NCBI GenBank assembly: GCA_001515955.1
Contig: LOES01000070.1
Location: forward strand, 1-59,361
Origin: Clostridia bacterium BRH_c25
Lineage (GTDB): Bacteria > Bacillota_A > Clostridia > Lutisporales > Lutisporaceae
Direction: 5' to 3'
Length of the DNA: 59,361 nt
The notes under the pieces were generated by a model. That model saw only the letters and a list, made by a program, of their open reading frames with translations, had not been told where the DNA came from and made no database searches. Shown here one piece after another: positions 251 through 22,198 of this stretch. The first letter of the stretch is position 1. Every line of letters starts with the position of its first letter. The position numbers were made by a program, and so were the translations under genes.

Positions 251-414
251 GAATATGTAAGGATTAACTATTTAACTATACATTCTTACTAAAAAAATAT
301 TTGATAAAACAATAGGTTTCTAAAAGAGCTTAAATGTTAAACATTTCAATTAATAAAATTACTACATTAAAGCAATCAAACAAGAATAAGCAATTATTTA
401 AGGGGGAAATGAAG

Positions 415-1395: not shown

Positions 1396-2454
1396 ATGAA
1401 GGCTAAGATTGCGTTTATGTATGGACCTGGTGATTTAAGAATCCAAGAAGTGGAGCTTCCGGCATTAAAACCTGATCAAGTGCTTATAAAACTAAAAGCA
1501 TGCGGCATTTGCGGCTCTGATGTTGAATGCTTTGAAGGAAAGTCAGATGAAGGGCGTTATGATATAGCACCCTATACTCCCGGACATGAATGGGCAGGGC
1601 AGGCAGTTGCAGTGGGAAGCGAAGTTACATCGGTTGCTGTCGGCAACAAAGTAGTTGGAGACTGTGTACTTGCCTGTGGAAAATGTGCAAATTGCAAAGA
1701 AGGAAAAATGCCTTCGGCTTGCCTTAACATGAGGGAGATAGGCTTCCGCCCTGACTCACCCGGAGGATTTGGGGAGTATATGATTCTTGAAGAACAGTAC
1801 ACACATGTTATACCGGATGATTGGGATTACGAGCTTGGAGCATGGGTTGAAACCTTTAATGTCGGTTACTGGGGAGTATGGGGCAATGGCTGCAGCCCCG
1901 ATGCATCAGATGATGTTGCAATAATCGGAGGCGGACCGATAGGCTTGACTGCAGCTATGACATGCAAGACATCGGGAGCCAGGGTAATATTGATAGACCC
2001 TATAGCATCAAGACGTGAGAACGCGTTGAAATATGGTGCGGATATATGCATTGATCCTACAAGCTGTAATTTGGAAGAAGAGATAAAGCGTTTGACTGAC
2101 GGCCGTGGTCCTTCGGTAGTAATTGAATGCTCCGGGAATGATGCGGGAATAGCATCGTTGTTTGATATTGCAGGACATAACTGCCGTGTTGGATTAGTAG
2201 GACATTCAATAGGAAGAAAAGTAGCTGTTGAAATAGGGAAGACTATTTGGAAGACACTTAAAATATCAGGCTCAGGAGGGACCAAGACCTGGTTCCCGAA
2301 AACAATCAGATTCATGTCTGCGATTAAGGACAGGTATGATTTTGCGGCATTGAACACACATCACTTTAATTTCAAAGACCTGGACAAAGCAATGGATATG
2401 GCATGTCACCACAAGGATATTGCCAGAAAGGTCATGCTGACATTTGATGAGTAA
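1396..2454 (+). CDS. Zinc-dependent medium-chain alcohol/polyol dehydrogenase
   Basis: This is an NAD(P)-dependent polyol dehydrogenase of the sorbitol/threonine dehydrogenase superfamily. It shows the catalytic zinc segment GICGSD (C39), GHE (H64-E65), the four structural-zinc cysteines in C-x2-C-x2-C-x7-C spacing near residues 95-110, and a Rossmann GGGPIG motif near 178. Its length of 352 aa is normal. It sits 21 bases after iolN with GGGAGG upstream. In context it probably oxidises an inositol isomer or an inosose, but the exact substrate cannot be read from the sequence. It could be a second inosose dehydrogenase alongside iolM. Confidence 0.8.
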   Translation: MKAKIAFMYGPGDLRIQEVELPALKPDQVLIKLKACGICGSDVECFEGKSDEGRYDIAPYTPGHEWAGQAVAVGSEVTSVAVGNKVVGDCVLACGKCANCKEGKMPSACLNMREIGFRPDSPGGFGEYMILEEQYTHVIPDDWDYELGAWVETFNVGYWGVWGNGCSPDASDDVAIIGGGPIGLTAAMTCKTSGARVILIDPIASRRENALKYGADICIDPTSCNLEEEIKRLTDGRGPSVVIECSGNDAGIASLFDIAGHNCRVGLVGHSIGRKVAVEIGKTIWKTLKISGSGGTKTWFPKTIRFMSAIKDRYDFAALNTHHFNFKDLDKAMDMACHHKDIARKVMLTFDE

Positions 2455-2515: not shown

Positions 2516-3697
2516 ATGAGGGCATTTTATGTTGAGGCCGACTGGGAACCAAAGCCGGGATACAAGCTTTCAAAACGTGAAAGCGACACCAGAAGATCAG
2601 CAAGAGGAAATTCAATATGGAAAAATCTGCGTGCCGCCGTAGTTGACCGGCCCATGCCGGAGATCAAGCCTGATGAAGTATTGCTAAAAGTTGGCGCGGC
2701 AGGTATTTGCGGTACCGATGCCCACCTTCTTCAATTGGATGCAGATGGATATACAAAGTACGACGGACATTCCAAATATCCTATTACTACCGGGCATGAA
2801 TTCGCCGGTGAAGTTGTAGAAATCGGGAAAAATGTTACCTCACTTAAGGTTAGTGACCTTGTAAGTGTTGAATCAATGAACTGGTGCGGCGAATGTGATG
2901 CTTGCCGTATGGGAATGTTCAACCAGTGCCAGAATTTGGAGGAACCTGGCTTGACCTTCGATGGAGGTTTTGCGGAGTATGTTGCAGTAAAGGCAAAATA
3001 TTGTTATTTACTAAATGATATTGTTGAGCTGTATAAAGACAAAATGTCGGCTTTTGAGCTTGGTGCAATGATTGAACCAACAGGTGTTGCATATAATGGA
3101 CTATTTGTCCGCGGCGGGGGTGTCAGACCAGGGGGACATGTAGTTGTATTCGGGGCCGGTCCTGTCGGGCTTGCGGCAGTTGCGCTTATGAAAACAAGTG
3201 GTGCTGCAAAATTGATTTGTTTTGAAACAACAGCAGAGCGTAGACAGCTTGCATTAAATATGGGAGCAGATTATGTATTTGATCCTATAAAGCTTTCAAA
3301 TGATAAAGTTGATGCGGCGGAAATGCTGATGGATCTGACAAAAGGCAGGGGTATCTCATTATTTGCTGAGTGTTCCGGTGCGACAAATGCAACCTACCCT
3401 GTAATGCAGGGGTCCCTGGCAATAGGCGGGAAAACGGTGCAAATCGGCCATACAATTGGAAAAACAAGCATTGACATGTACTCGTATCAATTTAAGGCAG
3501 GCATGATAAGCGGTTCCAACGGACAATCAGGACAAGGTATTTACAGTGATGTAATTGCTTTAATAGCAAGTGGCCGTATAGATATGCGCAAAATGGTTAC
3601 CGGTCGTGTACATCTTGAAAATATAATGCAGGGTATGGAGCAAGCAGGCAACAGAACTGCAGGCAAGGTTCTTGTAAGTACGCTGTATGACAAATAG
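2516..3697 (+). CDS. iolM: Zinc-dependent dehydrogenase, likely scyllo-inosose 3-dehydrogenase
   Basis: At 393 aa it is longer than an ordinary MDR alcohol dehydrogenase. An N-terminal extension (EADWEPKPGYKL) is a feature I associate with Thermotoga IolM, which oxidises scyllo-inosose to a diketo-inositol. Visible motifs are GICGTDAH, TTGHEFAGEV, the structural-zinc C-x2-C-x2-C-x7-C in the WCGECDAC segment, and a GAGPVG dinucleotide fold. GGAGGG precedes the ATG. The position between iolN and iolI fits the pathway order. Distinguishing it from a generic L-iditol or threonine dehydrogenase rests on the extension and the neighbours. Confidence 0.75.
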   Translation: MRAFYVEADWEPKPGYKLSKRESDTRRSARGNSIWKNLRAAVVDRPMPEIKPDEVLLKVGAAGICGTDAHLLQLDADGYTKYDGHSKYPITTGHEFAGEVVEIGKNVTSLKVSDLVSVESMNWCGECDACRMGMFNQCQNLEEPGLTFDGGFAEYVAVKAKYCYLLNDIVELYKDKMSAFELGAMIEPTGVAYNGLFVRGGGVRPGGHVVVFGAGPVGLAAVALMKTSGAAKLICFETTAERRQLALNMGADYVFDPIKLSNDKVDAAEMLMDLTKGRGISLFAECSGATNATYPVMQGSLAIGGKTVQIGHTIGKTSIDMYSYQFKAGMISGSNGQSGQGIYSDVIALIASGRIDMRKMVTGRVHLENIMQGMEQAGNRTAGKVLVSTLYDK

Positions 3698-3736
3698 AAA
3701 GCTGAATGGTTTATCTTTATAGAGAGGGGTATGCCA

Positions 3737-4597
3737 ATGATGAAAATCGGATTTAATGAAGCAACTGCAATGAGAAAGTCTGATTTGTCTACTGACTTGT
3801 TATTAACCGAAAAATACGGGTATGATTATATTGAAATCAGGCTGGACATGTTGAAGGATTATCTGAAAAACCATAGCATTGAAGATTTAGTCAGTTTCTT
3901 TTCAAAAAGTAAAGTAAAACCATATGCTTTAAATTCAATAGAAAATATCAACTTTTGCAGTGATAAGGAACACTCAGATGTTATGAGTCTGATGGAATGG
4001 GCATGCTCAGTTGCACAAAAAATCAATAATCCGTACATTATAATAGTTCCGACCATAGATGAAAAGGTTAAAAAGTACAGTATCGGGGAAACGGAAGAAG
4101 ATTCAATAAAGATGCTGAATGAACTGGCGGATGTTGGTGAGCGTTATGGGGTTAAGCTCGCTTTTGAGCCTATAGGCTCTCACCATTGTGCTGTAAAAAG
4201 CATGGCGCAGTGTTGGGATATAGTAAGGAAAGTTAATAGAGACAGTGTCGGGATTGCTGTTGATGCTTTTAACCTATATCTGTATAGGGCTCTTGAGGAT
4301 CTTGATGACATTCATAAGGTTGATTCGAATAAGTTGTTTGTTTTCCATATTGATGACAGTGAAGAGTTGCCCCTTGAGAAGCTCGATCACTGTAACAGGT
4401 TATGGCCTGGAGATGGTGCAATACCTTTGGATAAACTCATCGGAGCACTAAAGCAAAAAGGCTTTGACAGTATAGCATCTGTTGAACTTTTTAGACCTGA
4501 ATATTGGGAGCTTACACCAGAGGAAGCCATAAAGACGGGCAAGGAAAAAACTGCCTCAGTATTAGAAAAATTCTATAATAACACAACAATAAAATGA
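3737..4597 (+). CDS. iolI: Inosose isomerase, IolI type (TIM barrel)
   Basis: This AP-endonuclease-2 TIM-barrel isomerase interconverts inososes, bringing D-chiro-inositol into the myo-inositol route. It matches Bacillus IolI as I remember it: FNEAT near the start, EKYGYDYIEIR, and the C-terminal SVELFRPEYW followed by LTPEEAIKT. Metal ligands are the Glu, Asp, His and Glu residues in LAFEPIG, VDAF, FHIDD and SVELFRPE. ATGs occur at 3731, 3737 and 3740. GAGAGGGG at 3722-3729 best suits 3737, and the family start corresponds to 3740. It is the last gene of the iolN operon. Confidence 0.85.
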   Translation: MMKIGFNEATAMRKSDLSTDLLLTEKYGYDYIEIRLDMLKDYLKNHSIEDLVSFFSKSKVKPYALNSIENINFCSDKEHSDVMSLMEWACSVAQKINNPYIIIVPTIDEKVKKYSIGETEEDSIKMLNELADVGERYGVKLAFEPIGSHHCAVKSMAQCWDIVRKVNRDSVGIAVDAFNLYLYRALEDLDDIHKVDSNKLFVFHIDDSEELPLEKLDHCNRLWPGDGAIPLDKLIGALKQKGFDSIASVELFRPEYWELTPEEAIKTGKEKTASVLEKFYNNTTIK

Positions 4598-6857: not shown

Positions 6858-7694
6858 ATGGAAAGAGTGCAATTGACAGATGGAAGTGTTAAAATTGCGG
6901 TATCTACAGCGGATTCTGCTCCGGATACTGCACCACTGCTGCTATTGGGAGACATATGTGATAACCTGGAAAAAGCACATAAGCTCGGATATTCTGCAAT
7001 AGAAGTGCATACAAGGGAGAATGCCGGCTTAAACTATGAAAAAATACTGGATACATGTAAAAAATCAGGCATGAGAATATCCGCAATAGTGACAGGAAGA
7101 CTGCATAACGAAGAGAGAGTAACATTAATAGACGATGATGCTGCAAAAGTAAAAATAGCCATGGACGGGTTAAAAAAATATATTGATATTGCCCAAATAT
7201 TACAAACAGACATAATCATTGGCTGGATAAGAGGCAGGCTGCCGGAGGGAAATAATAATGAGCTTTATGAAGAAAGGCTTGCTGATAACATAAAAACCTT
7301 GGCATTATATGCAATGGATAAAAATGTGAAGATACTTATAGAAGCTATAAACAGGTATGAGATTAATTTTCTTAATACGGGCAAGGAGATTTTTGACCTT
7401 ATCGAAAAGTATGAAATCCCAAACACCTTCGTTCACTTGGATACTTTCCACATGAATATTGAAGAAGATGATATAAACAGTACAATAAAGTACTGTGCCG
7501 GCAAACTGGGTTATATGCACTTGGCAGACAGCAACAGAAGATATCCGGGGGCGGGACACTTGGATTTTGTGAGTATTATGAAATCACTTGAAGACATCAA
7601 TTACCGGGGCTATGTGTCGGTAGAGTGCCTTCGAAAGCCAACTGGAGAAGAAGCGGCGCTGCGGGCTATTCAAAAAATTCAATCAATATACTAA
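6858..7694 (+). CDS. iolO: 5-keto-L-gluconate epimerase-like TIM-barrel protein
   Basis: This sugar isomerase/epimerase has 278 aa and the AP-endonuclease-2 fold. Segments INRYEINFLNT, DTFHMNIEED, HLADSNRRYPGAGH and GYVSVECL match what I recall of Thermotoga IolO, which converts 5-keto-L-gluconate to D-tagaturonate. The metal ligands (Glu, Asp, His, Glu) fall in ILIEAINRYE, HLDTFHMN, MHLADSN and VSVEC. A clean GGAGGTGAGAGG precedes the ATG. It has its own promoter, matching that of iolN. D-tagatose 3-epimerase relatives share the fold, so the exact epimer pair is inferred. Confidence 0.8.
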   Translation: MERVQLTDGSVKIAVSTADSAPDTAPLLLLGDICDNLEKAHKLGYSAIEVHTRENAGLNYEKILDTCKKSGMRISAIVTGRLHNEERVTLIDDDAAKVKIAMDGLKKYIDIAQILQTDIIIGWIRGRLPEGNNNELYEERLADNIKTLALYAMDKNVKILIEAINRYEINFLNTGKEIFDLIEKYEIPNTFVHLDTFHMNIEEDDINSTIKYCAGKLGYMHLADSNRRYPGAGHLDFVSIMKSLEDINYRGYVSVECLRKPTGEEAALRAIQKIQSIY

Positions 7695-9314: not shown

Positions 9315-10433
9315 ATGAAGTCTATGAAGAGAATCCTATCACTGGTACTGGCCCTGGTAATGATAACAGTTATAGCTGGTGCCTGCGCGCCGGCAAATAA
9401 CACAGAACCTCCGGCTGCAGAAGGTACCGAAGTAAAGGCTAAGGACATCAAAGATATAAAAATTGGTGTTTCAGTCGGTACACTTAAGCAGGAAAGATGG
9501 CAGCGTGAAGTTGAGATGTTCAAGACTTATGCGGATGAAAAAGGTTTTGAGCTTGTTGTTCAGTCAGCTGAGGATGATGCTCAGAAGCAGGCTTCTCAGG
9601 TTGAGAACCTTATAAGCCAGGGTATTGATGTTCTTATTATTCAATCCCTCGACGCAGAGGCATGTGCTCCTCTTGTTGATGCAGCTCACGAAGCTGGCAT
9701 TCCGGTTATCTCCTACGACAGATTCATTATGAATGCTGATCTTGACTATTACATTACATTTGACTCAGTAAAGGTTGGAGAAGTTCAGGCACAGTTTGTT
9801 GTGGACAAGGCTCCAAAGGGTAATTACATTTGGCTGAAGGGCGGCCCGGAAGACAACAACGCACACTTGGTTGCACAGGGTCACAAGAATATACTTCAAC
9901 CTTATATAGATAAGGGAGACATAAAGATAGTTCTTGAACAATGGTGTAAGGGTTGGGATCCTAACGAAGCTCTGAAGAATGCGGAAAACGGTCTTACATT
10001 AGCTAATAATGACATTCAGGGTGTTATTGCATCCAATGACGGTACAGCCGGTGGTGCTATTCAGGCTCTTACAGCTCAGGGGCTTGCAGGTAAGGTTCCG
10101 ATCGCAGGCCAGGATGCTGACCTCGCTGCTGCTCAGAGAATAGTCGAAGGCACACAGACCGGTACTGTTTACAAACCTCTTGCAAAGCTTAACGCAGCAG
10201 CTATCCAGCTTGCAGTTTCTCTTGCAATCGGCAAGGAAGCAAGCGATGCAGTAGATCCTGCATTAGGAACATGGACAAAGCTTGACAACAACTTCAAGCA
10301 GGTTGACACATTCTCAGTTGACGTTATGGCTATTGACAAAGATAACATCGTTGATATTCTTATCAATCAGGATAAGTTCCACAAATTAGAAGATGTATTC
10401 AAGAATGTTCCGAAGGATAAATGGCCTCAATAA
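9315..10433 (+). CDS. Sugar ABC transporter substrate-binding lipoprotein, XylF-like
   Basis: This extracellular sugar-binding lipoprotein has 372 aa, a signal peptide and a lipobox ending at the Cys in VIAGAC (residue 25). The type-I periplasmic binding fold resembles xylose-binding protein: SAEDDAQKQASQVENLI, SYDRFI, DYYITFDSVKVGE, ASNDGTAGGAIQAL and GQDADLAAAQRI. It is the first gene of a CUT2 importer. Position inside the inositol cluster suggests inositol as ligand, as in known CUT2 inositol importers (IbpA/IatA/IatP); xylose remains possible. GGGAGG precedes the ATG. Codon choice looks biased, consistent with high expression. Confidence 0.85.
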   Translation: MKSMKRILSLVLALVMITVIAGACAPANNTEPPAAEGTEVKAKDIKDIKIGVSVGTLKQERWQREVEMFKTYADEKGFELVVQSAEDDAQKQASQVENLISQGIDVLIIQSLDAEACAPLVDAAHEAGIPVISYDRFIMNADLDYYITFDSVKVGEVQAQFVVDKAPKGNYIWLKGGPEDNNAHLVAQGHKNILQPYIDKGDIKIVLEQWCKGWDPNEALKNAENGLTLANNDIQGVIASNDGTAGGAIQALTAQGLAGKVPIAGQDADLAAAQRIVEGTQTGTVYKPLAKLNAAAIQLAVSLAIGKEASDAVDPALGTWTKLDNNFKQVDTFSVDVMAIDKDNIVDILINQDKFHKLEDVFKNVPKDKWPQ

Positions 10434-10471
10434 GCGAATATATAATAGAATAAGATAGTAATAGTTTTGTC

Positions 10472-10514
10472 TGTAGATGGTGCGTGGATATTTTTCTTCC
10501 ATGCACCATCTACA
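10472..10514 (+). promoter_or_regulatory. Intercistronic hairpin between binding protein and ATPase
   Basis: TGTAGATGGTGC pairs with GCACCATCTACA, extended by TGGA/TCCA, around a short loop. No T-run follows. Such hairpins after binding-protein genes usually stabilise the upstream message and lower downstream expression. Confidence 0.7.
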
Positions 10515-10551
10515 CAACAAGCTTAATGTTCTTTTGTTGGGAGGTGGAAGA

Positions 10552-12090
10552 GTGCACGAATACTTGCTTCAGATGAAAAACATTTCAAAGGAATTTCCTG
10601 GTGTTAAAGCTTTGGATAATGTAAATTTTAATGTCATTAAGGGACAAATACATGCGCTGGTTGGCGAAAATGGTGCAGGGAAATCGACATTGATAAAAAT
10701 ATTATGTGGGATATATCCACATGGTACCTACGATGGGCAGATTGTCATTAATGGAGAGGAAAAAAAATTCAACAGCATCAGAGATGTTGAATACTCAGGT
10801 ATAGCATGCATTCACCAGGAATTGAATTTGGTGCCTGAGCTTAGTGTATGTGAAAACATATTTCTAAACAACAAGCCTGGCAAATACGGTATTGTAGATT
10901 TTAATCAGATGTACAAACGTACAAAGGAGTTACTCTTAAGCATTGGCTTGGATGTGGATTCCCGCAACGGGGTAGATCCCAATGAAAAGCTGAGGAATCT
11001 TGGAATAGGGCAAAAACAGCTGGTTGAGATTGCTAAAGCCCTATCAAGAGATATAGATTTGTTAATTTTGGATGAACCTACATCTGCTCTGACTGAGGCT
11101 GAAGTAGACATTCTTTTGGATATCCTTGATGGTTTGAGAAAGAAAGGTGTTACATGTATTTACATTTCACATCGTCTTGATGAGGTTATGAGAATTGCAG
11201 ATACAATAACTGTCTTAAGAGACGGACAGACTATTGAGACCCGTGAAAAAGCAAATATGGATAAAGAGACAATGATAAGCTTAATGGTCGGCCGTGAGCT
11301 CAAGAACATGTTTCCCAGGGTTGCCCACGAAAGAGGAGAGCTTGCCTTTGAGATAAAGGATTACAGTATAAGGCATCCTGACATCCCTGGAAAGATGCTG
11401 CTGGATAATGTCAGTCTAAAAGCTTACAAAGGTGAGATATTGGGTATTAGCGGCCTTATGGGAGCAGGAAGGACTGAATTATTCACATCCGTGTTCGGTG
11501 CATTTAGTGAGCCGGCTGAGGGTGAGGTTTTTATCGAAGGGAAAAAAGTTGAAATCAAAAATCCGGTAGATGCTTTGAATAATGGATTGTTTTTGCTGAC
11601 TGAAGATAGGAAAAAACTTGGGCTTAATCTTATTATGAGTGTTAAAGAGAATACTACACTTGCATCTCTAAAAAAGGTGTCCAATTTTGGGGTATTGGAT
11701 AATAACAAGGCGATTTTTGAAACAAACAAATATGTTGAAAATATAAAAATCAAAACACCAAACGTCGAGGCTTCGGTTAATACCTTAAGCGGCGGCAACC
11801 AGCAAAAAGTTGTAATTGCCAAAGCTTTAATGACTGAACCAAAGGTTATTATTCTTGATGAGCCGACACGAGGGATTGATGTCGGAGCAAAATATGAAAT
11901 ATATAAACTTATGAATCAACTGATAGATGAAGGTGTGACAGTAATTATGATTTCTTCTGAGATGGAAGAAATATTGGGTATGAGTGATAGAGTGTTGACG
12001 ATGTGCAACGGCAAGTTAAACTGCGAATTTGATATTTGCGAGGCGACTCAAGAGAAACTAATGCAAGCTTCGACAGGGAGTGATGATTAA
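10552..12090 (+). CDS. Sugar ABC transporter ATP-binding protein, XylG-like (two ABC domains)
   Basis: This 512-aa protein has two fused nucleotide-binding domains. The first has Walker A GENGAGKST, an LGIGQKQLVEIAKAL signature and LLILDEPTSAL Walker B. The second has a degenerate Walker A region (GLMGAGRTE), an LSGGNQQKVVIAKAL signature and VIILDEPTRGIDVG, typical of CUT2 sugar importers. GTG at 10552 follows GGAGGTGG (10540-10547), and the protein then begins like XylG (HEYLLQMKNISK). An upstream ATG at 10477 lies within the hairpin and is rejected as the start. Confidence 0.9.
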   Translation: MHEYLLQMKNISKEFPGVKALDNVNFNVIKGQIHALVGENGAGKSTLIKILCGIYPHGTYDGQIVINGEEKKFNSIRDVEYSGIACIHQELNLVPELSVCENIFLNNKPGKYGIVDFNQMYKRTKELLLSIGLDVDSRNGVDPNEKLRNLGIGQKQLVEIAKALSRDIDLLILDEPTSALTEAEVDILLDILDGLRKKGVTCIYISHRLDEVMRIADTITVLRDGQTIETREKANMDKETMISLMVGRELKNMFPRVAHERGELAFEIKDYSIRHPDIPGKMLLDNVSLKAYKGEILGISGLMGAGRTELFTSVFGAFSEPAEGEVFIEGKKVEIKNPVDALNNGLFLLTEDRKKLGLNLIMSVKENTTLASLKKVSNFGVLDNNKAIFETNKYVENIKIKTPNVEASVNTLSGGNQQKVVIAKALMTEPKVIILDEPTRGIDVGAKYEIYKLMNQLIDEGVTVIMISSEMEEILGMSDRVLTMCNGKLNCEFDICEATQEKLMQASTGSDD

Positions 12091-12092
12091 TT

Positions 12093-13265
12093 ATGGAAAA
12101 TCAGGTTTTGGAGAGAAAAAAGCTGTTCAGTACTGAAAAATTCAATGTAAGAACTTATACGATGATAGCGGCTCTTATCATTATGTGGATCGGATTCACA
12201 TATCTAACGGATGGTTTCTTTATTTCAGCAAGAAACATGTCAAACCTTGTACGTCAGATGGCAATCGTAGGGATAATGGGGACGAGCATGGTGCTTGTAA
12301 TCGTATCAGGAGGTATTGACCTTTCTGTAGGATCGGTAATGGGTTTCTTAGGCTGTATAGCAGCTGCACTTCAAGTATGGGGTGGAATGGGTACATTTGA
12401 AGTCATAGCGATATGTCTTGCTTCAGGCCTTTTAATTGGTCTTTTTCAAGGTGGCTTGATTGCATATACGGATGTGCCGCCATTTATTATAACTCTTGGA
12501 GGAAGTCTTGTGTTCAGGGGAGCAGTTCTAGCGGTTACAAGAGGTACCACCGTTGCCCCGCTGCAGAAGTCGCTGCTTTATTTCGGTCAGGCATATGTAA
12601 GCAATTTTGTAGGTATTATTATTGCGGTTGGTGCTGTATTGTTTCTGTTGTTGAACGAGCTTTCAAAACGAAAAGCAAAGAAAAAATATAATAGTCTGAC
12701 TGAGCCCATAGGAAGTATGGTAATTCGTTGGTTAGTCTTTAGTTCGATTATTTCTGCCTCCGTATTAGTACTTAACAGCTACAAAGGTATTCCTGTACCG
12801 GTTCTTCTAATGTTCATACTTGTTGTAATTTTTTCATTCATAGCTGAGAAGACAAACTTTGGACGCAGGATATATGCAATCGGCGGTAATATTGATGCTG
12901 CAAAGTATTCCGGAATAAATGTAAAGAAAAATATTGCCATGGTGTACTGTCTTAATGGATTAATGGCCGCGGTAGCCGGCTTGATTCTGGCAGCACGTCT
13001 GAATGCAGGAACTCCCCAGGCAGGTATAAATCTTGAATTGGATGCAATTGCTGCTGCAGTTATCGGTGGAACCAGCATGACAGGGGGTGTGGGTAGAGTT
13101 TCGGGTGCGATTCTTGGGGCCTTGATCATGGCTACTATTGACAACGGTATGAGTATGATGAACCTGGATGCTTACTGGCAGTATATGGTAAAAGGTGCAA
13201 TTTTGATAACTGCTGTATGGTTTGATATTAAAACAAAGAAGAATAGTACAAAATTCAAAAAATAG
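12093..13265 (+). CDS. Sugar ABC transporter permease, XylH-like
   Basis: This integral membrane permease of the BPD_transp_2 (CUT2) family has 390 aa and about ten hydrophobic helices. It has the family motif VSGGIDLSVGSVMG and the late GGTSMTGGVGRVSGAILGALI segment. It starts 2 bases after the ATPase stop. It completes the importer with the binding protein and ATPase, presumably for inositol. Confidence 0.9.
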   Translation: MENQVLERKKLFSTEKFNVRTYTMIAALIIMWIGFTYLTDGFFISARNMSNLVRQMAIVGIMGTSMVLVIVSGGIDLSVGSVMGFLGCIAAALQVWGGMGTFEVIAICLASGLLIGLFQGGLIAYTDVPPFIITLGGSLVFRGAVLAVTRGTTVAPLQKSLLYFGQAYVSNFVGIIIAVGAVLFLLLNELSKRKAKKKYNSLTEPIGSMVIRWLVFSSIISASVLVLNSYKGIPVPVLLMFILVVIFSFIAEKTNFGRRIYAIGGNIDAAKYSGINVKKNIAMVYCLNGLMAAVAGLILAARLNAGTPQAGINLELDAIAAAVIGGTSMTGGVGRVSGAILGALIMATIDNGMSMMNLDAYWQYMVKGAILITAVWFDIKTKKNSTKFKK

Positions 13266-13301: not shown

Positions 13302-14318
13302 ATGAAGGATAGAATTAGTGTAGGAATATTGGGTGCAGGGCGTATAGGCAGGCTGCATGCCGAAAATATTGCCTATGCTATGCCCGAAGTGAATATTGCG
13401 TCAATTGCTGATGTTTCATTAAATGATGAAATGAAAAAGTGGGCTGATGGAATTGGAGTAACCAAGCTCTATTCAGATCCGGATATGGTTATAAATGATA
13501 AAGCTATTGATGCTGTTCTGATATGTTCATCAACAAATACCCACGCAGATCTAATCGTTCAATGTGCAAGAGCAGGAAAGGATATTTTCTGTGAGAAGCC
13601 CATTGATTTTAATCTTGACAAAATCAATAAGGCCTTAATTGAGGTTGAAAAGGCCGGTGTTAAGCTGCAGGTTGGTTTTGTCAGAAGATTTGATCACAAC
13701 CATAAGAAAGTCAGGGATGTTGTTGCCTCCGGCTCTCTGGGAAAACCGCACATTATAAAGGTCACATCAAGAGATCCGGTACCACAGCCAATAGAGTATG
13801 TAAAGGTTTCGGGGGGCCTTTTTATGGATATGATGATCCATGACTTTGATATGGCCAGATACCTGTCGGGAAGCGAGGTTACCGAAGTCGCCGCTTATGG
13901 GAATGTGCTGATTGACGAGAGTCTCAACAGCATTGATGATATTGATACCGCTATCGTTATGCTTAAATTTGAAAACGGCAGCATCGGAGTCATCGATAAC
14001 AGCAGGCGTGCAGGCTATGGGTATGATCAAAGGACAGAGGTGCACTGTGACAAAGGCTGCGTCCAGGTTTCAAATGATGTTCCGAACTCTTCAATGATCA
14101 GCACAGCAGAGGGTGTCTTTCTGGAAAGGCCGCTGTGGTTCTTCCTCGAAAGATATAACAATGCCTTTATAAGTGAAATCAAGGCATTTGCAGATGCGGT
14201 CAAGAATGATAAAGAGACGCTGGTCGGCAGCATTGACGGACTCATGCCGGTAAAGATCGCAATTGCGGCGAAAAAGTCCTTGAAGGAAGGCCGCTCAGTG
14301 AAGATATCAGAAATATAG
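13302..14318 (+). CDS. iolG: Inositol 2-dehydrogenase (Gfo/Idh/MocA family)
   Basis: This NAD-dependent oxidoreductase converts myo-inositol to scyllo-inosose. The 338-aa protein has the Rossmann motif GAGRIGRLHA (residues 11-20), catalytic Lys99 in CEKP, and the D176/H180 pair in MDMMIHDFDMA. These correspond in spacing to the Lys-Asp-His set of Bacillus IolG. GAAAGGAG precedes the ATG. It follows the ABC transporter by 36 bases and provides the first step feeding IolM. Confidence 0.85.
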   Translation: MKDRISVGILGAGRIGRLHAENIAYAMPEVNIASIADVSLNDEMKKWADGIGVTKLYSDPDMVINDKAIDAVLICSSTNTHADLIVQCARAGKDIFCEKPIDFNLDKINKALIEVEKAGVKLQVGFVRRFDHNHKKVRDVVASGSLGKPHIIKVTSRDPVPQPIEYVKVSGGLFMDMMIHDFDMARYLSGSEVTEVAAYGNVLIDESLNSIDDIDTAIVMLKFENGSIGVIDNSRRAGYGYDQRTEVHCDKGCVQVSNDVPNSSMISTAEGVFLERPLWFFLERYNNAFISEIKAFADAVKNDKETLVGSIDGLMPVKIAIAAKKSLKEGRSVKISEI

Positions 14319-14525: not shown

Positions 14526-15698
14526 ATGACAATACAAGAAGAATCTTTAAAACTGCACAAAAAATGGAAAGGGAAGATTGAGGTTATTAGCACTGTACCG
14601 GTAGCCTCAAAATACGATTTATCGACAGCATATACCCCGGGAGTTGCGGAGCCTTGCCTTGCGATACAGAAGAATGCAGACCTGTCCTATGAACTGACAA
14701 GGCGCTGGAATTTAGTTGCGGTCGTAACCGACGGCACTGCTGTATTAGGCCTTGGAGATATCGGGCCAGAATCGGCAATGCCGGTTATGGAAGGCAAATG
14801 TGTCCTCTTCAAGACCTTTGGTGATGTTGATGCCTTTCCCCTTTGCATCCGATCCAAGGAAGTCGGCGACATCGTCAATACAGTAAAGCTTTTGGCCGGA
14901 AGCTTTGGTGGTGTCAACCTGGAGGATATTTCAGCCCCAAGGTGCTTTGAAATCGAAAGAAGGCTAAAAGCGGAATGTGATATTCCGATTTTTCACGATG
15001 ACCAGCATGGTACGGCAGTGGTTGTTCTTGCTGCCATGATTAATGCCTTGAAATTAGTCAAAAAGGGTATAAAAGATATTGAAGTGGTGGTCAACGGCTC
15101 AGGTGCTGCCGGTATAGCCATTACCAAGCTTTTGATGAGTATGGGACTAAAGAAGGTCATTCTCTGTGATACAAAAGGCGCCATTTATGAAGGCAGAGAA
15201 AATCTCAATGACGAAAAGATACTTATGGCTGGAATTTCCAATCTGGAGAAGAAGAAGGGAAGTCTGGCAGATGTGCTTACCGGCGCTGATGTGTTTATCG
15301 GCGTATCGGCTCCCGGAATGGTTACACCGGACATGGTGAAATCCATGGCGAAGGATGCAATTGTTTTTGCAATGGCCAATCCGGTGCCGGAAATCATGCC
15401 GGAGCTTGCAAAAGAAGCAGGGGCAAAGGTAGTTGGCACAGGTCGTTCCGACTTTGCAAACCAGATCAATAATGTCCTGGCTTTCCCGGGTATTTTCAGA
15501 GGAGCTCTGGATGTAAGAGCAAAGGATATCAATGATGAAATGAAAATTGCGGCTGCCGAAGCTCTGGCAGGGTTGGTCAGTGATGATGAGCTTAATGAAG
15601 AATACATCCTCCCGCTGCCCTTTGACCAGAGAGTGGGCAAGTCGGTGGCGGAAGCCGTGGCAAAAGCCGCAAAAGCATCGGGAGCAGCAAGGCTGTAA
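14526..15698 (+). CDS. NAD(P)-dependent malic enzyme
   Basis: Catalyses L-malate + NAD(P) to pyruvate + CO2. The 390-aa protein is the short bacterial type. It shows TAYTPGVAEPC, VVTDGTAVLGLGDIGP, the metal/active-site HDDQHGTAVVV segment, the Rossmann VNGSGAAGIAITK and MANPVPEIMPE. AAAGGAGAAGAG precedes the ATG. The 207 bases after iolG hold a GATCTACC/GGTAGGTC hairpin (about 14419-14437) and a TGATAAT -10-like sequence, so the malic enzyme group may have its own promoter. Its stop overlaps the frame of the next gene. Malate produced by the proposed downstream module would be its substrate. Confidence 0.9.
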   Translation: MTIQEESLKLHKKWKGKIEVISTVPVASKYDLSTAYTPGVAEPCLAIQKNADLSYELTRRWNLVAVVTDGTAVLGLGDIGPESAMPVMEGKCVLFKTFGDVDAFPLCIRSKEVGDIVNTVKLLAGSFGGVNLEDISAPRCFEIERRLKAECDIPIFHDDQHGTAVVVLAAMINALKLVKKGIKDIEVVVNGSGAAGIAITKLLMSMGLKKVILCDTKGAIYEGRENLNDEKILMAGISNLEKKKGSLADVLTGADVFIGVSAPGMVTPDMVKSMAKDAIVFAMANPVPEIMPELAKEAGAKVVGTGRSDFANQINNVLAFPGIFRGALDVRAKDINDEMKIAAAEALAGLVSDDELNEEYILPLPFDQRVGKSVAEAVAKAAKASGAARL

Positions 15699-15718
15699 TG
15701 ATCGGAGGAGGTAACGGA

Positions 15719-16966
15719 ATGCAAGTTACGTTGGGCTTTGGAAAACAGAATGTGGAGCTTGATATTAAGGATGAAAACCTGCTGGGCATATTGATGCCCA
15801 ATGAGGTTGAAGCTTTAAAGACCGGACAGGATGAAGTCAGGCGGGCAATGGAAAACCCCATTTCTTCCGCCAGGCTCAAGGATGTCGTGAAAGCAGGGGA
15901 AAAGGTTGCGATTATAACCAGCGACATTACAAGACCCATGCCCGGTAAAATCGTGCTGCCGGTGGTGCTGGAAGAGTTGAACCAAGCAGGAGTGGCCGAT
16001 TCGGACATACAAGTGATATTCGCATTGGGCAGCCACCGCAAGCATACGGTGGAGGAAATGAAATACCTGGTTGGAGAAACGGTATATGAGCGGGTGGAGT
16101 GTATCGATCTGGATGTCGATGACTGTGTAGATTTGGGTATTACTACCTGCGGCACCCCGGTCAGTGTATTCAGACCGGTTGTTGAAGCAGACCGAAGAAT
16201 CTGTCTGGGCAATATAGAATATCACTACTTTGCAGGCTACAGCGGCGGTGCAAAAGCCATCCTGCCCGGGGTCTGCACCAGGGATGCCATCCAGAAAAAC
16301 CACAGTATGATGGTCAGGGATGAGGCTAAAGCAGGAGCCATTGAGGACAATCCGGTCCGTAAGGATATCGACGAGGTGGCGGATTTGATAGCTATCGATT
16401 TTATTGTCAATGTGGTGCTGAATGAAAAGAAGACCATTATCAAGGCTGTTGCAGGGCATTACATTGATGCACACAGAGAAGGCTGCCGGTTCCTGGATAA
16501 ATTGTATAAGGTACGGATGCCGGAGGCTGCCGACATCGTATTGGTATCGGCAGGGGGATATCCGAAGGATATCAATTTGTATCAGGCGCAAAAAGCACTT
16601 GATAATGCAAAACACGCAGTCAGGGATGGGGGTATCATCATTCTGGCGGCCTCTTGCAAGGAAGGCCTGGGTGAGCATGTGTTCGAGCAATGGATGACGA
16701 CTTCCGCTTCATCAGAGGAGATGATTGCAAACATACAAAAGAATTTTGTGTTGGGCGGCCATAAGGCGGCAGCTATTGGAATGGTGCTGAAGAAAGCAAA
16801 GGTATTTCTTGTATCCGATTTGGATGAGGCTTTTGTAAAGAGCATTTTCCTTGAACCGTATAACAGCGTAGATAAGGCTTTGGACAGTGCCTTCGAAGCA
16901 TTGGGCAGTGACGCAAAAGTAATTGTTATGCCTTACGGCGGATCAACATTGCCTTTTGTAGGATAA
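15719..16966 (+). CDS. LarA-family nickel-dependent 2-hydroxyacid racemase/epimerase
   Basis: This is a homologue of lactate racemase LarA, which uses a nickel-pincer nucleotide bound covalently to a Lys. In the 415-aa form, H106, H169, K179 and H195 are visible in GSHRKH, EYHYFAGYSGGAK and QKNHSMM. The K-to-H spacing of 16 and H-to-K spacing of 10 equal those of LarA (H174, K184, H200). GGAGGAGG (about 15705-15712) selects the ATG at 15719 over 15698. Adjacency to malic enzyme makes malate racemisation the first guess; lactate, tartrate or a sugar acid are alternatives. The cofactor genes larB, larC and larE are not in the window. Confidence 0.8.
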   Translation: MQVTLGFGKQNVELDIKDENLLGILMPNEVEALKTGQDEVRRAMENPISSARLKDVVKAGEKVAIITSDITRPMPGKIVLPVVLEELNQAGVADSDIQVIFALGSHRKHTVEEMKYLVGETVYERVECIDLDVDDCVDLGITTCGTPVSVFRPVVEADRRICLGNIEYHYFAGYSGGAKAILPGVCTRDAIQKNHSMMVRDEAKAGAIEDNPVRKDIDEVADLIAIDFIVNVVLNEKKTIIKAVAGHYIDAHREGCRFLDKLYKVRMPEAADIVLVSAGGYPKDINLYQAQKALDNAKHAVRDGGIIILAASCKEGLGEHVFEQWMTTSASSEEMIANIQKNFVLGGHKAAAIGMVLKKAKVFLVSDLDEAFVKSIFLEPYNSVDKALDSAFEALGSDAKVIVMPYGGSTLPFVG

Positions 16967-17023
16967 TTCTACCGGTCTAGGAAAATGTAACTATTATAAA
17001 TTAGAAATTCAGGAGGGAAAATA

Positions 17024-18046
17024 ATGATTAAAGTAGGCGTAGCAGGTTACGGTGTCATAGGTCAGAGATTGGCCGACGGTGTCGCATTACAGAAGGATAT
17101 GCAGCTGGTAGGGATTGCAGATGTATCCCCGACACTGGCAGTCAGAGCATTAAAAGAAAAGGGCATGCCGTATAATTTGTATCTGGCAGCTCCCGACAAT
17201 AAGGCACAGTTCGATGAACTGGGTATCCCGATATCAGGAACAATGGAGGAATTGGTTCAGAGCGTTGACATTATGCTGGATGCTACCAGTGCGGGTGTAG
17301 GCGCAAAGAACAAGGAGCTTTATGCAAAGCTCGGCAAGAAAGCAATATTCCAGGGTGGAGAAAAGAACAGCGTCGCAGATGTATTCTTCCATGGTTATGC
17401 AAACTATGAGCAGGGTCTCAATAAGCAGTTTCTGAAGCTGACCTCCTGCAATACGACAGGTTTGATCCGGTCGGTTGATTGTCTTGACAGAGCTTATGGA
17501 ATTGAAAGAGTTGCTATTACAATTATCAGAAGAGTGGCTGACCCCGGAGACTATCACAGAGGCTTGACCAACGCACTGCAGATTGACAAAGCACCCAGCC
17601 ACCAGGCTGTGGACCTTATGTCCATCATGCCCCATGTAAATGCTACCGGCATACTTGTACACACGCCGGTTACACACGGTCATATTATCACAGTTGTTGC
17701 AACAGGGAAGAATAAGATCACAAAAGAAATGGCCCTGGAAGCTTTCGGAGGTCATGACAGAATCAGAATAGTCAGAATAGCCGATGGTTTCTTAGGTAAT
17801 GCATCACTCTTCAGATATGCAAGAGATCTGGGCAATCCAAGAGGTGACATGTATGAAATCGCATTATGGGAAGAATCTATTGTTGAAACCGGTAATGATA
17901 TCATGTATGCCATCAATATTCCGCAGGAATCCGTTACCATCCCCGAAACAATGGACGGAATCCGTGCTGCAATGGGGATGCAGGCAGACAGATTGGCCGG
18001 TGTAGGGGAAACAAATAAATATCTGGGGCTGGGAAAATGGAAGTAA
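17024..18046 (+). CDS. Archaeal-type (type II) glyceraldehyde-3-phosphate dehydrogenase homologue
   Basis: A phosphorylating aldehyde dehydrogenase of 340 aa, related to archaeal GAPDH rather than bacterial GapA. It has the N-terminal nucleotide fold VAGYGVIGQRLADGV, the catalytic Cys142 in SCNTTGL, and WEESI plus PQESVTIPE near the end. Compared with archaeal enzymes as I remember them, the DDKTGP-like phosphate region reads DYHRGL, and SHH reads SHQ. The aldehyde bound may therefore differ from glyceraldehyde 3-phosphate. GGAGGG precedes the ATG. It overlaps the kinase gene by 10 bases, indicating tight coupling. Confidence 0.8.
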   Translation: MIKVGVAGYGVIGQRLADGVALQKDMQLVGIADVSPTLAVRALKEKGMPYNLYLAAPDNKAQFDELGIPISGTMEELVQSVDIMLDATSAGVGAKNKELYAKLGKKAIFQGGEKNSVADVFFHGYANYEQGLNKQFLKLTSCNTTGLIRSVDCLDRAYGIERVAITIIRRVADPGDYHRGLTNALQIDKAPSHQAVDLMSIMPHVNATGILVHTPVTHGHIITVVATGKNKITKEMALEAFGGHDRIRIVRIADGFLGNASLFRYARDLGNPRGDMYEIALWEESIVETGNDIMYAINIPQESVTIPETMDGIRAAMGMQADRLAGVGETNKYLGLGKWK

Positions 18047-19296
18047 AGAGTACCATCCGTATCAGAGCTATTGATGAATTTGATTATAATGACAAGACGG
18101 TGCTTTTGAGGCCGGACATCAACTCCCCTATTGACCCGGCAACCAGGAAGATCGCCAATTACAATCGGATCAAGGCCAGTATACCGACAATCCGGGATAT
18201 ACTGGACAAAGGCGCCAAGCTGGCTATTATCGCTCATCAGGGAGACACTCTGGATTATCAGAATCTGATACCGATGCATGAGCATGCCGAGAAGCTTTCT
18301 GCATATCTGGGAAAGGAAGTCAGATATATCGACGATGTATGCGGACCGGCAGCACAGGCTGCCGTCAAGGCACTAAAGCCGGGAGAGGCAATACTCCTTG
18401 GTAACCTCCGTTATCTGTGTGAAGAAATATCCACCTTTGAAAACGCCGTCAAGCTGAAGGCGGAAGAAATGTTGGATACCTACCTGATCAGAAGTCTGGC
18501 ACCACTTTTTGACTATTATGTCAATGATGCTTTTGCAGCAGCACACAGGAATGCACCTTCCATGGTTGCTTTCCAGGAGCTTCTGCTTACAGCAGGCGGC
18601 AGGCAGCTGATGGAGGAGTACGGTGCTTTGTCAACTGTAATGAAGGCACCAAGGTCGCCCTCGGTGTTTGTACTGGGCGGTGCCAAGATATCCGATGCCT
18701 TCGGAATGATGAAGCAGGTGCTGCAGAACGGAACTGCAGATAAGATCCTGGCCTGCGGCATAACCGGCGAGATCATGCTTTGGGCAATGGGCAGACAGCT
18801 TGGCAGCAAAAAGGAAAGGTTCCTGAAGGATAAGGAGCTGCACCTCTTTGTAGAGCCGGCAAAGGAGTATCTGAAGGAATATCCCGGCAAGATTGAGGTG
18901 CCGGTGGATCTGGCTTATGAGAAGGACGGCACGAGAGTGGAAATACCGGTGGAAGAGCTGCCAAGGGAAGAAGTATATATGGATATTGGCACAAGGACTA
19001 TTGAGAAATACAGAAAAATCCTCAATGAGGCAGGAACAATTTTTGTCAACGGTCCTGCCGGCGTCTATGAAAACAAGATATTTGAAGCAGGTACAAAGGA
19101 AATATGGAATGCCATAGCAGAAGCACCGGGATACTCCGTAATCGGAGGCGGTGACACAGTCAATGCGGCGTCCAGGTTTATTGATCTAAGCAGAATAAGC
19201 TACGTCTGCACAGCAGGCGGAGCCATGGTCAGGTTCCTGTCAGGCAAAAAACTGCCGTTGATTGAAGCGATGGAAAAAGCCTATGAAAAAAAATAA
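18037..19296 (+). CDS. Archaeal-type phosphoglycerate kinase homologue with altered substrate site
   Basis: This two-domain kinase of 419 aa would transfer phosphate from an acyl phosphate to ADP. LLRPDINSPIDP (R25, D27, N29), the Arg in YNRIKASIPTI, LLGNLRY, VNDAFAAAHRNAPS and the nucleotide-domain GGGDTVNAA are clear and archaeal in style. The segment that is SHLGRP in PGK (archaeal AHQ-x-R) reads AHQGDT here: H67 is kept but the phosphate-binding Arg is Asp70. That loss suggests a substrate other than 3-phosphoglycerate. It overlaps the GAPDH homologue and precedes transketolase. Confidence 0.75.
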   Translation: MEVKSTIRIRAIDEFDYNDKTVLLRPDINSPIDPATRKIANYNRIKASIPTIRDILDKGAKLAIIAHQGDTLDYQNLIPMHEHAEKLSAYLGKEVRYIDDVCGPAAQAAVKALKPGEAILLGNLRYLCEEISTFENAVKLKAEEMLDTYLIRSLAPLFDYYVNDAFAAAHRNAPSMVAFQELLLTAGGRQLMEEYGALSTVMKAPRSPSVFVLGGAKISDAFGMMKQVLQNGTADKILACGITGEIMLWAMGRQLGSKKERFLKDKELHLFVEPAKEYLKEYPGKIEVPVDLAYEKDGTRVEIPVEELPREEVYMDIGTRTIEKYRKILNEAGTIFVNGPAGVYENKIFEAGTKEIWNAIAEAPGYSVIGGGDTVNAASRFIDLSRISYVCTAGGAMVRFLSGKKLPLIEAMEKAYEKK

Positions 19297-19316
19297 ATGG
19301 ATGAGAAGTGATATAT

Positions 19317-20153
19317 ATGAATGAGAAAATGAAAAAAGAACTTGAAAAATTCGCAGCCAGGATCAGGCTTGAAACAATGAAGGAATTCAGAGCCCTGGGC
19401 TTTGGACATGTAGGCGGATCAATGTCTATAATAGATACATTGGCAGTTCTGTATGGTGAAGTGATGAATATTGACCCGGAAGCTCCCAGGTGGGATGACA
19501 GGGATTGGCTGGTGGTGTCTAAAGGGCATGCAGGTCCGGCAGTATATGCAACACTGGCACTTAAGGGCTATTTCCCTTTAGAAGAGCTTTTGACCTTGAA
19601 CAAGCCGGGCACGAATCTTCCAAGCCACTGTGACAGGAATAAAACGGTAGGAATAGATATGACCACCGGTTCCCTTGGCCAGGGAGTATCTACAGCAATA
19701 GGAGCAGCACTGGGCAACCGTCTGGATAAGAAAGCAAACTATACTTACCTGATAATCGGTGACGGAGAGTGTGATGAAGGACAGGTATGGGAAGGGGCAT
19801 TATTTGCAGCACACCAGAAGCTTGATAATCTGATTGCCTTTGTAGATGAAAACAAGAAGCAATTGGACGGTTACACCAAGGATGTAAATGATCTTGGGGA
19901 TATTAAAGCAAAATTCGAATCCTTCCATTGGCATGCACAGAGAGTAGATGGTGCGGATGTTGAACAAATCTACAATGCTATACAGGAAGCAAAAAATACA
20001 AAGGGAAAACCATCTGTAATAGTATTGGATACAATTAAGGGGAAAGGCTGCTATTTTGCTGAGAATGCAGAGGCCAATCACCATATGGTCATAGAAGCAT
20101 CTCAGGCAGATAAGGCTATAGAAGAGCTGGAACGCAAGGTGGTGGAATTATGA
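19317..20153 (+). CDS. Transketolase, N-terminal (thiamine-diphosphate) subunit
   Basis: The N-terminal half of a split transketolase, 278 aa from ATG 19317. A GTG at 19308 is in frame but less likely. It has the substrate/ThDP His segments FGHVGGS and SKGHAGPA, the TGSLGQG motif and the ThDP-binding GDGECDEGQVWE...DNKKQ-like region (ENKKQLDG). It pairs with the next gene to transfer C2 ketol units between ketose and aldose. The two genes overlap by 4 bases (ATGA), so they are translationally coupled. Confidence 0.9.
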   Translation: MNEKMKKELEKFAARIRLETMKEFRALGFGHVGGSMSIIDTLAVLYGEVMNIDPEAPRWDDRDWLVVSKGHAGPAVYATLALKGYFPLEELLTLNKPGTNLPSHCDRNKTVGIDMTTGSLGQGVSTAIGAALGNRLDKKANYTYLIIGDGECDEGQVWEGALFAAHQKLDNLIAFVDENKKQLDGYTKDVNDLGDIKAKFESFHWHAQRVDGADVEQIYNAIQEAKNTKGKPSVIVLDTIKGKGCYFAENAEANHHMVIEASQADKAIEELERKVVEL

Positions 20154-21121
20154 GTATAAAGATAGCCAAAGAAAATGTAAAAGAAGCTGCAGCAATGAGA
20201 GATGTGTACTGCCAGACTCTTATGGAAATGGCCAAGGAGGATGACAGCATAGTTGTACTTGATGCTGATTTGATGAGCTCAATGGGTATGGTTAAGTTTT
20301 GGAAGGCATATCCTGAAAGGACCTTCAATTGCGGCATACAGGAAGCAAACATGATTGGGGTTGCAGCCGGCTTATCGGCAACCGGAAAAGTTCCATATGC
20401 CCATTCTTTCGGACCTTTTGCATCAAGAAGATGCTTTGATCAGGTGTTTATGTCCTGTGCATATGCAAAGCTTAACGTAAAAATAATAGGAAGCGATCCC
20501 GGAGTAACAGCAGCATTCAATGGCGGTACTCACATGCCTCTTGAAGATATTGGTATAATGAGAAACATTCCGGAAATGACAATTCTGGAGCCGGTTGACA
20601 CAGTTATGCTCAGTGATCTGGTAAAACAGGTGTCAGATATTTATGGGGTATTCTATATAAGACTGCTCAGGAAAAATGCCGTAAAAATATATGAAGAAGG
20701 CTCAAGCTTTGAAATAGGCAAGGCGGTAACACTGCGTGAAGGCAAGGATGCTGCTATAATCGCAACCGGAATAATGGTTGCGGAAGCTCTTAAAGCTGCC
20801 GGAATCCTTGCAGAAAAAGGCATATCGGTAAAAGTGGTAAATATGTTCACATTGAAACCGATTGATAAGGATGCAGTAATTGCCTGTGCAAAGGAAACAG
20901 GGGCGGTAGTAACTGCAGAAAACCACAATATAATAAACGGCCTTGGTTCGGCAGTTGCTGAAGTGTTGTCTGAGAATGTTCCTGTGCCTTTAGAAAGAGT
21001 GGGAGTGCAGGATGTATTTGGTGAAGTTGGTCCTGAAGACTACTTGAAAGAAAAATTCGGACTGACTGCAGAGAATATAGTAGAAAAGGTAAAAAAAGCA
21101 ATTGCAAGAAAGTTAAAGTGA
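20150..21121 (+). CDS. Transketolase, C-terminal (pyrimidine-binding) subunit
   Basis: The C-terminal half of the split transketolase, 323 aa. It has the pyrimidine-binding domain with catalytic Glu in FNCGIQEANMIGVAAGL, the HSFGPFASRRCFDQV motif and a C-terminal transketolase fold (VTAENHNIINGLGSAVAE). As the last gene before a terminator, it closes the malic enzyme-larA-gapdh-pgk-tkt group. Its donor substrate in this context is proposed to be an inositol-derived keto-acid sugar. Confidence 0.9.
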   Translation: MSIKIAKENVKEAAAMRDVYCQTLMEMAKEDDSIVVLDADLMSSMGMVKFWKAYPERTFNCGIQEANMIGVAAGLSATGKVPYAHSFGPFASRRCFDQVFMSCAYAKLNVKIIGSDPGVTAAFNGGTHMPLEDIGIMRNIPEMTILEPVDTVMLSDLVKQVSDIYGVFYIRLLRKNAVKIYEEGSSFEIGKAVTLREGKDAAIIATGIMVAEALKAAGILAEKGISVKVVNMFTLKPIDKDAVIACAKETGAVVTAENHNIINGLGSAVAEVLSENVPVPLERVGVQDVFGEVGPEDYLKEKFGLTAENIVEKVKKAIARKLK

Positions 21122-21143: not shown

Positions 21144-21170
21144 AAGCAGCCGGTTACGGCTGCTTTCTTG
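21144..21170 (+). terminator. Terminator closing the inositol/transketolase locus
   Basis: AAGCAGCCG and CGGCTGCTT pair around GTTA, followed by TTCTTGCTT. Confidence 0.8.
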
Positions 21171-22014: not shown

Positions 22015-22029
22015 ATATAATAGATAAAC

Positions 22030-22071
22030 AGTCAATAAATGTGAAATTAAGCTTTATTGACTTTTCTTTTT
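22030..22071 (+). terminator. Terminator after tetR
   Basis: AGTCAATAAA and TTTATTGACT pair, followed by TTTCTTTTT. Some read-through would feed the RND genes. Confidence 0.7.
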
Positions 22072-22198
22072 GCCATGAGACATGGAGACGGAGGCATCAT
22101 GGTTAGATTAGAATTTGATTAGAATTTCTGAACCATCAGACTTATTTCAAAATATTGCGTACTTTTTCATGAATGCAGAAAGAGAGGTGGTCAAAAAC

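Follow-up and report, generated by a model that had tools for sequence, protein, structure and literature searches.

A candidate transketolase route for splitting 2-deoxy-5-keto-gluconate in inositol catabolism, read from a six-gene run of Clostridia bacterium BRH_c25 and its relatives

Six consecutive genes in Clostridia bacterium BRH_c25 quite probably encode a third way to split 2-deoxy-5-keto-D-gluconate (DKG), a conclusion based on comparative genomics (gene content, conservation, co-occurrence with iolB, iolD and iolE, replacement of iolC, paralogy and residue changes) and on the chemistry of the compounds concerned. The stretch analysed here, called the window, comprises 59,361 nucleotides of contig LOES01000070.1 (assembly GCA_001515955.1). 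The six open reading frames (ORFs), located at 14526-21121, are all on the + strand, with neighbours at most 57 bases apart or slightly overlapping. A first-pass annotation had described a malic enzyme, LarA, GAPDH, PGK and a split transketolase as running in one direction behind inositol genes and ending at one terminator; the coordinates and families agree with this, and a hairpin of nine pairs was found behind the last gene:

14526..15698, + strand, malic enzyme (Pfam malic and Malic_M)
15698..16966, + strand, LarA, nickel-dependent malate racemase of the LarAH6/Mar2 family (NF052593, 592.9 bits, cut-off 500)
17024..18046, + strand, archaeal-type (type II) GAPDH paralog (NF003251, 405.5 bits, cut-off 185)
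18037..19296, + strand, archaeal-type PGK paralog (Pfam PGK, 352 bits)
19308..20153, + strand, transketolase N-terminal subunit (Pfam Transketolase_N)
20150..21121, + strand, transketolase C-terminal subunit (Pfam Transket_pyr and Transketolase_C; motif RSFDR)
about 21144..21166, + strand, hairpin terminator closing the six-gene run (9-pair stem in the fold)

The hairpin has a z of -2.66, with 2 of 200 shuffles folding equally well, and is not among the terminators listed by a consensus terminator scan of the window.

We infer the following scheme, including each of its reactions, the acceptor and coenzyme, and the formation of DKG in BRH_c25. The two-carbon ketol end of DKG, which would be supplied as the common product of IolG, IolE, IolD and IolB, would be passed by the split transketolase to an acceptor, for instance glyceraldehyde 3-phosphate, yielding xylulose 5-phosphate and D-malic semialdehyde. 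The GAPDH paralog would then serve as a phosphorylating D-malic semialdehyde dehydrogenase, forming an acyl phosphate with NAD, and the PGK paralog as a D-malyl-phosphate kinase, releasing D-malate and ATP; LarA would invert D-malate to L-malate, and malic enzyme would convert the latter to pyruvate and CO2. By inference, such a route would spend no ATP on DKG and gain one at the PGK step.

The stereochemistry, worked by script from Fischer projections, fits this scheme. DKG is 3R,4S and, read from the ketol end, matches D-xylulose 5-phosphate (3S,4R) with CH2COO- in place of CH2OPO3, so that a specialised transketolase could take its C2 end. Removal of C2 leaves (R)-3-hydroxy-4-oxobutanoate, an analogue of D-glyceraldehyde 3-phosphate, and oxidation of this product yields D-malate, the (R) enantiomer. 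Since malic enzyme acts on L-malate, a malate racemase would be needed, which would explain LarA. The earlier proposal that D-malate is made and inverted by LarA thus gains from the predicted (R)-malate and from the malate racemase family found in the cluster.

A scan with the GAPDH, using one genome per species, yielded 432 relatives, of which the best 80 (76-86% identity) were mapped as loci, each at most 21 kb long and in many cases cut short by a contig end (L-numbers denote loci and G-numbers genomes). At least one of iolB, iolD and iolE is present in 47 of the 80 loci, and all three in 24. GAPDH and PGK are adjacent in 75 loci; LarA is recognized in 43, malic enzyme in 26, and transketolase genes in 39, 33 of which also carry iolB, iolD or iolE. 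The commonest families beyond the window's own query set are iolE (41 loci), iolD (36) and iolB (31); among locus representatives, the IolE and IolD models were matched over their cut-offs, and the IolB model below it (113 vs 205). At 1e-25, classical IolC had no match among the ORFs of the 80 loci, and IolJ-like class II aldolases were found in L039 (46%) and L031 (31%).

The titled taxa of the 80 loci include Clostridium, Caloramator, Lucifera, Desulfosporosinus, Flexilinea and other Anaerolineaceae, and Treponema and other Spirochaetaceae. Gene order varies: in Flexilinea (L003) it is iolG-iolB-iolD-iolE-GAPDH-PGK-transketolase-LarA, and in Treponema (L018) PGK-GAPDH-malic enzyme-LarA lies downstream of iolD and iolE. 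In the spirochaete-titled loci, LarA and malic enzyme share just 31-42% identity with their window counterparts, and for two of these LarAs the best model was LarAH6 (407-417 bits, below the cut-off of 500). In Clostridium ganghwense (L075), a gene of the tartrate/D-malate dehydrogenase family (TIGR02089, 521.3 bits, cut-off 470.4) stands between iolD and iolE; this family includes D-malate dehydrogenases. Neither LarA nor malic enzyme occurs in the fetched L075 locus, the rest of that genome not having been searched for them. LarA and malic enzyme in the clusters, the L075 dehydrogenase and the stereochemistry together back the proposed product chain. A phosphofructokinase gene (family c21) follows LarA in four of the 80 loci (the L021 copy, the one checked, scored 373.9 bits, cut-off 371), which fits the formation of sugar phosphates from C2 units.

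At the genome level, the 80 loci correspond to 76 genomes, L038 and L071 being left out and L013/L012 and L035/L030 sharing genomes by record title. A match to iolD at E 1e-100 was obtained in 71 of these 76 GAPDH-II genomes (46/50 and 25/26), 69 of them over the cut-off, and in three of 14 control genomes. Genomes whose loci hold only the GAPDH-PGK pair mostly carry iolD elsewhere; in four that were fetched (L144-L151), an iolB-iolD-iolE-iolG operon without adjacent iolC and a separate transketolase pair were found, and G046 (L152) has iolG-iolB-iolD-iolE-malic enzyme-LarA grouped together. The gene for IolC exceeds the cut-off in only two of 55 GAPDH-II genomes, namely G023 (one of 29) and G050 (one of 26), the latter having iolC but no iolD. 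The first-pass annotation had expected the six genes to co-occur with iol genes elsewhere and iolC to be missing from such genomes; the 47 loci and 71 genomes are in line with the first expectation, and the two iolC genomes among 55 with the second.

An even sample of 245 genomes across one class, around Clostridium magnum (G010), gave the same picture. GAPDH-II was found in eight genomes and iolD in 21, and seven of the eight are iolD-positive (two-sided Fisher p 9e-8); the remaining one, G213, lacks iolD and has two copies of the module (L132 and L133). Ten of the 21 iolD genomes have iolC, nine over the cut-off and one, G107, as a truncated copy beside iolD (283 bits, just under it). These ten fall among the 14 iolD genomes without GAPDH-II, and none among the seven with it (two-sided Fisher p 0.004); the groups of the class sample were defined after inspection of the data, and the Fisher tests treat genomes as independent of kinship. 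The remaining 11 iolD genomes divide in two. Six (G010, G019, G074, G080, G148 and G159) have transketolase-GAPDH-PGK in the iol cluster, that of G159 being partly at a second locus. Five (G087, G115, G132, G143 and G229) have a transaldolase homolog within the iolG-iolE-iolD-iolB cluster, together with an aldehyde dehydrogenase:

L122:5913-6986, transaldolase homolog
L123:6077-7150, transaldolase homolog
L124:6865-7941, transaldolase homolog
L125:9425-10498, transaldolase homolog
L127:6997-8070, transaldolase homolog

In these five genomes iolC is not over the cut-off. The L124 and L122 proteins match transaldolase models below the cut-off; the L122 aldehyde dehydrogenase exceeds the MMSDH cut-off, and the closest family for the L124 and L127 enzymes is acylating sulfoacetaldehyde dehydrogenase (602.6 and 593.5 vs a cut-off of 600). 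The transaldolase (at least 540 bits) also occurs in G205, an iolC-positive genome, and in none of the six genomes with the transketolase set; G229 has, besides the transaldolase, a GAPDH-PGK pair apart from its iol genes (L128). Judging from their gene content, the transaldolase clusters likely represent a route from DKG to malonic semialdehyde.

Of the proteins themselves, the window LarA has malate racemase Mar2 (6d6z) as its best PDB match (E 1.5e-135), and the C-terminal half of the transketolase has the split transketolase 6yaj. The four PDB matches of the GAPDH (2czc, 1cf2, 1b7g and 2yyy) are archaeal, as is the best match of the PGK (2cun, 288 bits, the next one 187). The GAPDH retains catalytic Cys142. 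Across 81 cluster GAPDHs, including that of the window, 23 residues invariant among three PDB chains have been replaced, the changes being fixed in at least 95% of the sequences; one of these residues, Lys33, has become Asp, which would favour NAD. In all 50 transketolase C-subunits compared, including that of the window (RSFDR vs RSFHR), Asp replaces the phosphate-orienting His of the two control chains, and in three of the 50 the motif is RAFDR, with Ala at the phosphate-Ser position.

It might be supposed that the GAPDH and PGK joined an inositol operon as ordinary glycolytic enzymes and simply raise the flux from glyceraldehyde 3-phosphate. The folds and the catalytic Cys are indeed those of GAPDH-II and PGK, the pair lies apart from iol genes in some genomes (L005, L007 and others), and the phosphofructokinase gene mentioned above would also suit such a role. 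However, a canonical PGK (480-596 bits) was found beside one or two divergent PGKs (330-394 bits) in 28 of 29 relatives' genomes, and class I GAPDH was over the cut-off in 32 of 33; G017, which has a divergent PGK alone, is the exception in both cases. In the relatives, therefore, the cluster enzymes are extra paralogs and not the main copies. Moreover, the linked genes encode a malate racemase and malic enzyme, and the searched genomes in which the pair is apart from iol genes are nearly all iolD-positive, with G047 as an exception. We thus regard a glycolytic role as very unlikely.

Several observations weigh against the transketolase route from DKG. Thirty-three of the 80 loci have none of iolB, iolD and iolE; module copies without iol genes nearby occur at L030, L049, L051, L132, L133 and L143; and five of the 76 GAPDH-II genomes (G043, G045, G047, G050 and G337) gave no iolD match at E 1e-100. 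G023 has the module set and iolC together, both over the cut-off, and matches to the IolC model under the cut-off, of up to 223 bits, are frequent in GAPDH-II genomes, so a divergent kinase may exist elsewhere in them. The window itself gave no tblastn match at 1e-8 to iolB, iolC, iolD, iolE, iolJ, transaldolase or MMSDH. The His controls for the transketolase are two PDB chains only (6yaj and 4kxu), and a PGK change near the sugar-phosphate site was dropped as a diagnostic, Asp being present at that position in some canonical PGKs as well.

The iol-free copies bring in a further reading, compatible with the route from DKG, in which the module would handle carboxylated ketoses in general, with inositol as one feed among several. 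In L133 and L143, transketolase-GAPDH-PGK-LarA-malic enzyme stands in a fetched stretch that contains no iol genes. Further dehydrogenases adjoin it, together with a TRAP-like transporter (named from its sequence alone) in L133 and an ABC transporter in L143, and its feed may be some other carboxylated sugar. GAPDH-PGK-LarA-malic enzyme also occurs without transketolase in L030 and L132. Against so wide a role stands the iolD of 71 of the 76 GAPDH-II genomes, and we consider it possible, at somewhat less than even chances. In L030 and L049, two loci lacking transketolase, GAPDH-II, PGK and LarA (in L030 also malic enzyme) adjoin genes for a 2-oxoacid dehydrogenase complex; the families checked were E1 and lipoamide dehydrogenase in L030 and lipoamide dehydrogenase in L049.

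The inositol region of the window, upstream of the six-gene run, contains the following genes:

334..1374, + strand, iolN, 3-dehydro-scyllo-inosose hydrolase (NCBIfam NF041098, 536.5 bits, cut-off 245)
1396..2454, + strand, IolM-paralogous zinc alcohol dehydrogenase (198.5 bits with the NCBIfam IolM model, under its cut-off of 450)
2516..3697, + strand, iolM, scyllo-inosose 3-dehydrogenase (NCBIfam NF041097, 540.8 bits, cut-off 450)
3731..4597, + strand, xylose-isomerase-like TIM barrel protein (Pfam PF01261)
6858..7694, + strand, IolO-like epimerase (NCBIfam NF041099, 242 bits, below the cut-off of 300)
9315..13265, + strand, sugar ABC transporter, three xylF/G/H-like genes
13302..14318, + strand, iolG, inositol 2-dehydrogenase (TIGR04380, 452.2 bits, cut-off 355)

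A helix-turn-helix regulator and a chemoreceptor gene also lie in this region. Homologs of the zinc alcohol dehydrogenase (79-80% identity) adjoin iolM/iolN in L012 and L079. Those of the TIM barrel protein (45-53%) are in or beside the iolB/D/E clusters L012, L123, L124, L130 and L136, and the protein is possibly an inosose isomerase. The transporter, whose xylG/H-like genes stand ahead of iol genes in L002 and other loci, is presumed to import inositol.

These upstream genes could point to another keto acid. If iolM, iolN and iolO had replaced iolB, iolD and iolE, the transketolase might cut 5-keto-L-gluconate, tagaturonate or fructuronate to tartaric semialdehyde, which we think unlikely; the continuation, in which GAPDH and PGK would yield tartrate, LarA would epimerise it and malic enzyme or another enzyme would decarboxylate it, is equally improbable. 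The window has iolM, iolN and an iolO-like gene with no iolB, iolD or iolE match, as this variant predicts, and side activity of related malate racemases on tartrate is described in PMC11770544. On the other hand, the window module shares 74-86% identity with the L002 module, which directly follows iolB-iolD-iolE; in L002 these three genes lie between the transporter and iolG, a position that is unoccupied in the window, where iolM/N/O lie upstream. Among 56 GAPDH-II genomes, a window-like iolN (at least 80%) was found only in G005 and G025, both iolD-positive, and two more had iolN relatives at 37-40%. A search of 33 genomes of the order of G001 gave one such gene, an 81% copy in G294, on a 14.6-kb contig with iolM- and iolO-like genes and no GAPDH or transketolase on that contig; GAPDH-II was not searched in G294. 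The iolD of G294 lies in two frames (716.8, just over the cut-off), with malic enzyme on the same contig, separate from the iolN contig. Since all three genomes with window-like iolN are iolD-positive, iolB, iolD and iolE are expected elsewhere in the BRH_c25 genome; 333 bases of the window precede iolN, and the inositol region may therefore extend leftward. The iolM/N/O genes visible in the window would lead to 5-keto-L-gluconate or tagaturonate, so the tartrate alternative of the first-pass annotation may apply to BRH_c25.

For the relatives, the DKG branch via transketolase put forward in the first-pass annotation is supported by co-occurrence with iolB, iolD and iolE, by the near-absence of iolC and by the genes of the product chain, and on this sequence evidence we hold it with fairly high confidence. 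The relatives share with the classical IolG-E-D-B-C-J-A pathway the upper part down to DKG. In the latter pathway DKG is phosphorylated and split into dihydroxyacetone phosphate and malonic semialdehyde, whereas here unphosphorylated DKG would be split into C2 and C4 (malate) units. The combination by which the classical pathway is recognized, IolC with IolB/D/E, is not seen in the window, which lacks matches to iolB/C/D/E/J; in the relatives iolB/D/E are present, but iolC is over the cut-off in only two of 55 GAPDH-II genomes.

The Thermotoga inositol route ends in tagaturonate and KDG steps. The Thermotoga maritima pathway shares with the window iolM and iolN, over their cut-offs, and an IolO-like gene below it; the window differs in having the transketolase-malate module downstream. 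From the archaeal type II GAPDH and archaeal-type PGK, with which fold and catalytic Cys are shared, the enzymes of the relatives differ in being extra copies and, for GAPDH, in the 23 changed positions. The sulfoquinovose transketolase (sulfo-TK) pathway would be a working parallel, though the six-gene route would not be a member of it. PMC11659671 describes Asp in place of the phosphate-orienting His in its SqwGH. Common to both are this Asp and a split transketolase that moves C2 from an acidic, unphosphorylated ketose to glyceraldehyde 3-phosphate, as proposed for the window. The differences are a carboxylate instead of a sulfonate on the substrate, the proposed oxidation of the C4 product to malate via an acyl phosphate, and the motif (RSFDR vs RAFDR in SqwGH). 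According to the Mar2 paper (PMC7583248), the in vivo roles of Mar2-type racemases are an open question; the window LarA, with its family score over the cut-off and Mar2 nearest in the PDB, would add a pathway to this family. The first-pass annotation knew of no described pathway with this gene set. Among the matches listed from the open-licence full-text literature, none describes such a pathway or joins transketolase with DKG, malic semialdehyde or D-malate in inositol breakdown; in the portion retrieved of PMC5808187, where 2-deoxy-5-keto, transketolase and inositol occur together, transketolase appears just in a reference title.

Some other genes were noticed beside these. A protein of about 220 residues is encoded beside or near GAPDH-PGK in four loci (L132:6948-7604, L051:9287-9955, L060:2-661 and L076:12290-12949); no NCBIfam family matched the L132 and L051 copies, which were checked. 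In the window, 21337-26793 encodes a regulator of the TetR type, a large transporter of the RND type (judged by its sequence) and an RND adaptor over the cut-off, unrelated to the inositol genes, and 46278-47396 gave a weak match to LuxE-like acyl-protein ligase (106.7 bits vs a cut-off of 550).

Inositol is a plant-derived sugar alcohol. In guts and soils the inositol of phytate supplies much carbon, and many of the relatives come from animal guts according to their record titles. A large genome survey (PMC9430895) scores inositol use by three of the four genes iolB/C/D/E, the missing fourth possibly reflecting incomplete sequence, assembly errors or frameshifts. It seems likely that bacterial inositol catabolism divides at DKG into three interchangeable routes (kinase/aldolase, transaldolase and transketolase), mirroring sulfoglycolysis. 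In the last of these, spread over Clostridia, Anaerolineae and spirochaetes, a carboxylate would replace the phosphate through a mini-glycolysis of transketolase, GAPDH and PGK, giving ATP and D-malate, and with it a job for the nickel malate racemase. If this is true, there is a set of iolC-less bacteria whose inositol pathway is complete, leads to other products and presumably yields more ATP at the DKG step; Mar2-type malate racemases would acquire a physiological role, and the GAPDH and PGK folds a new substrate.

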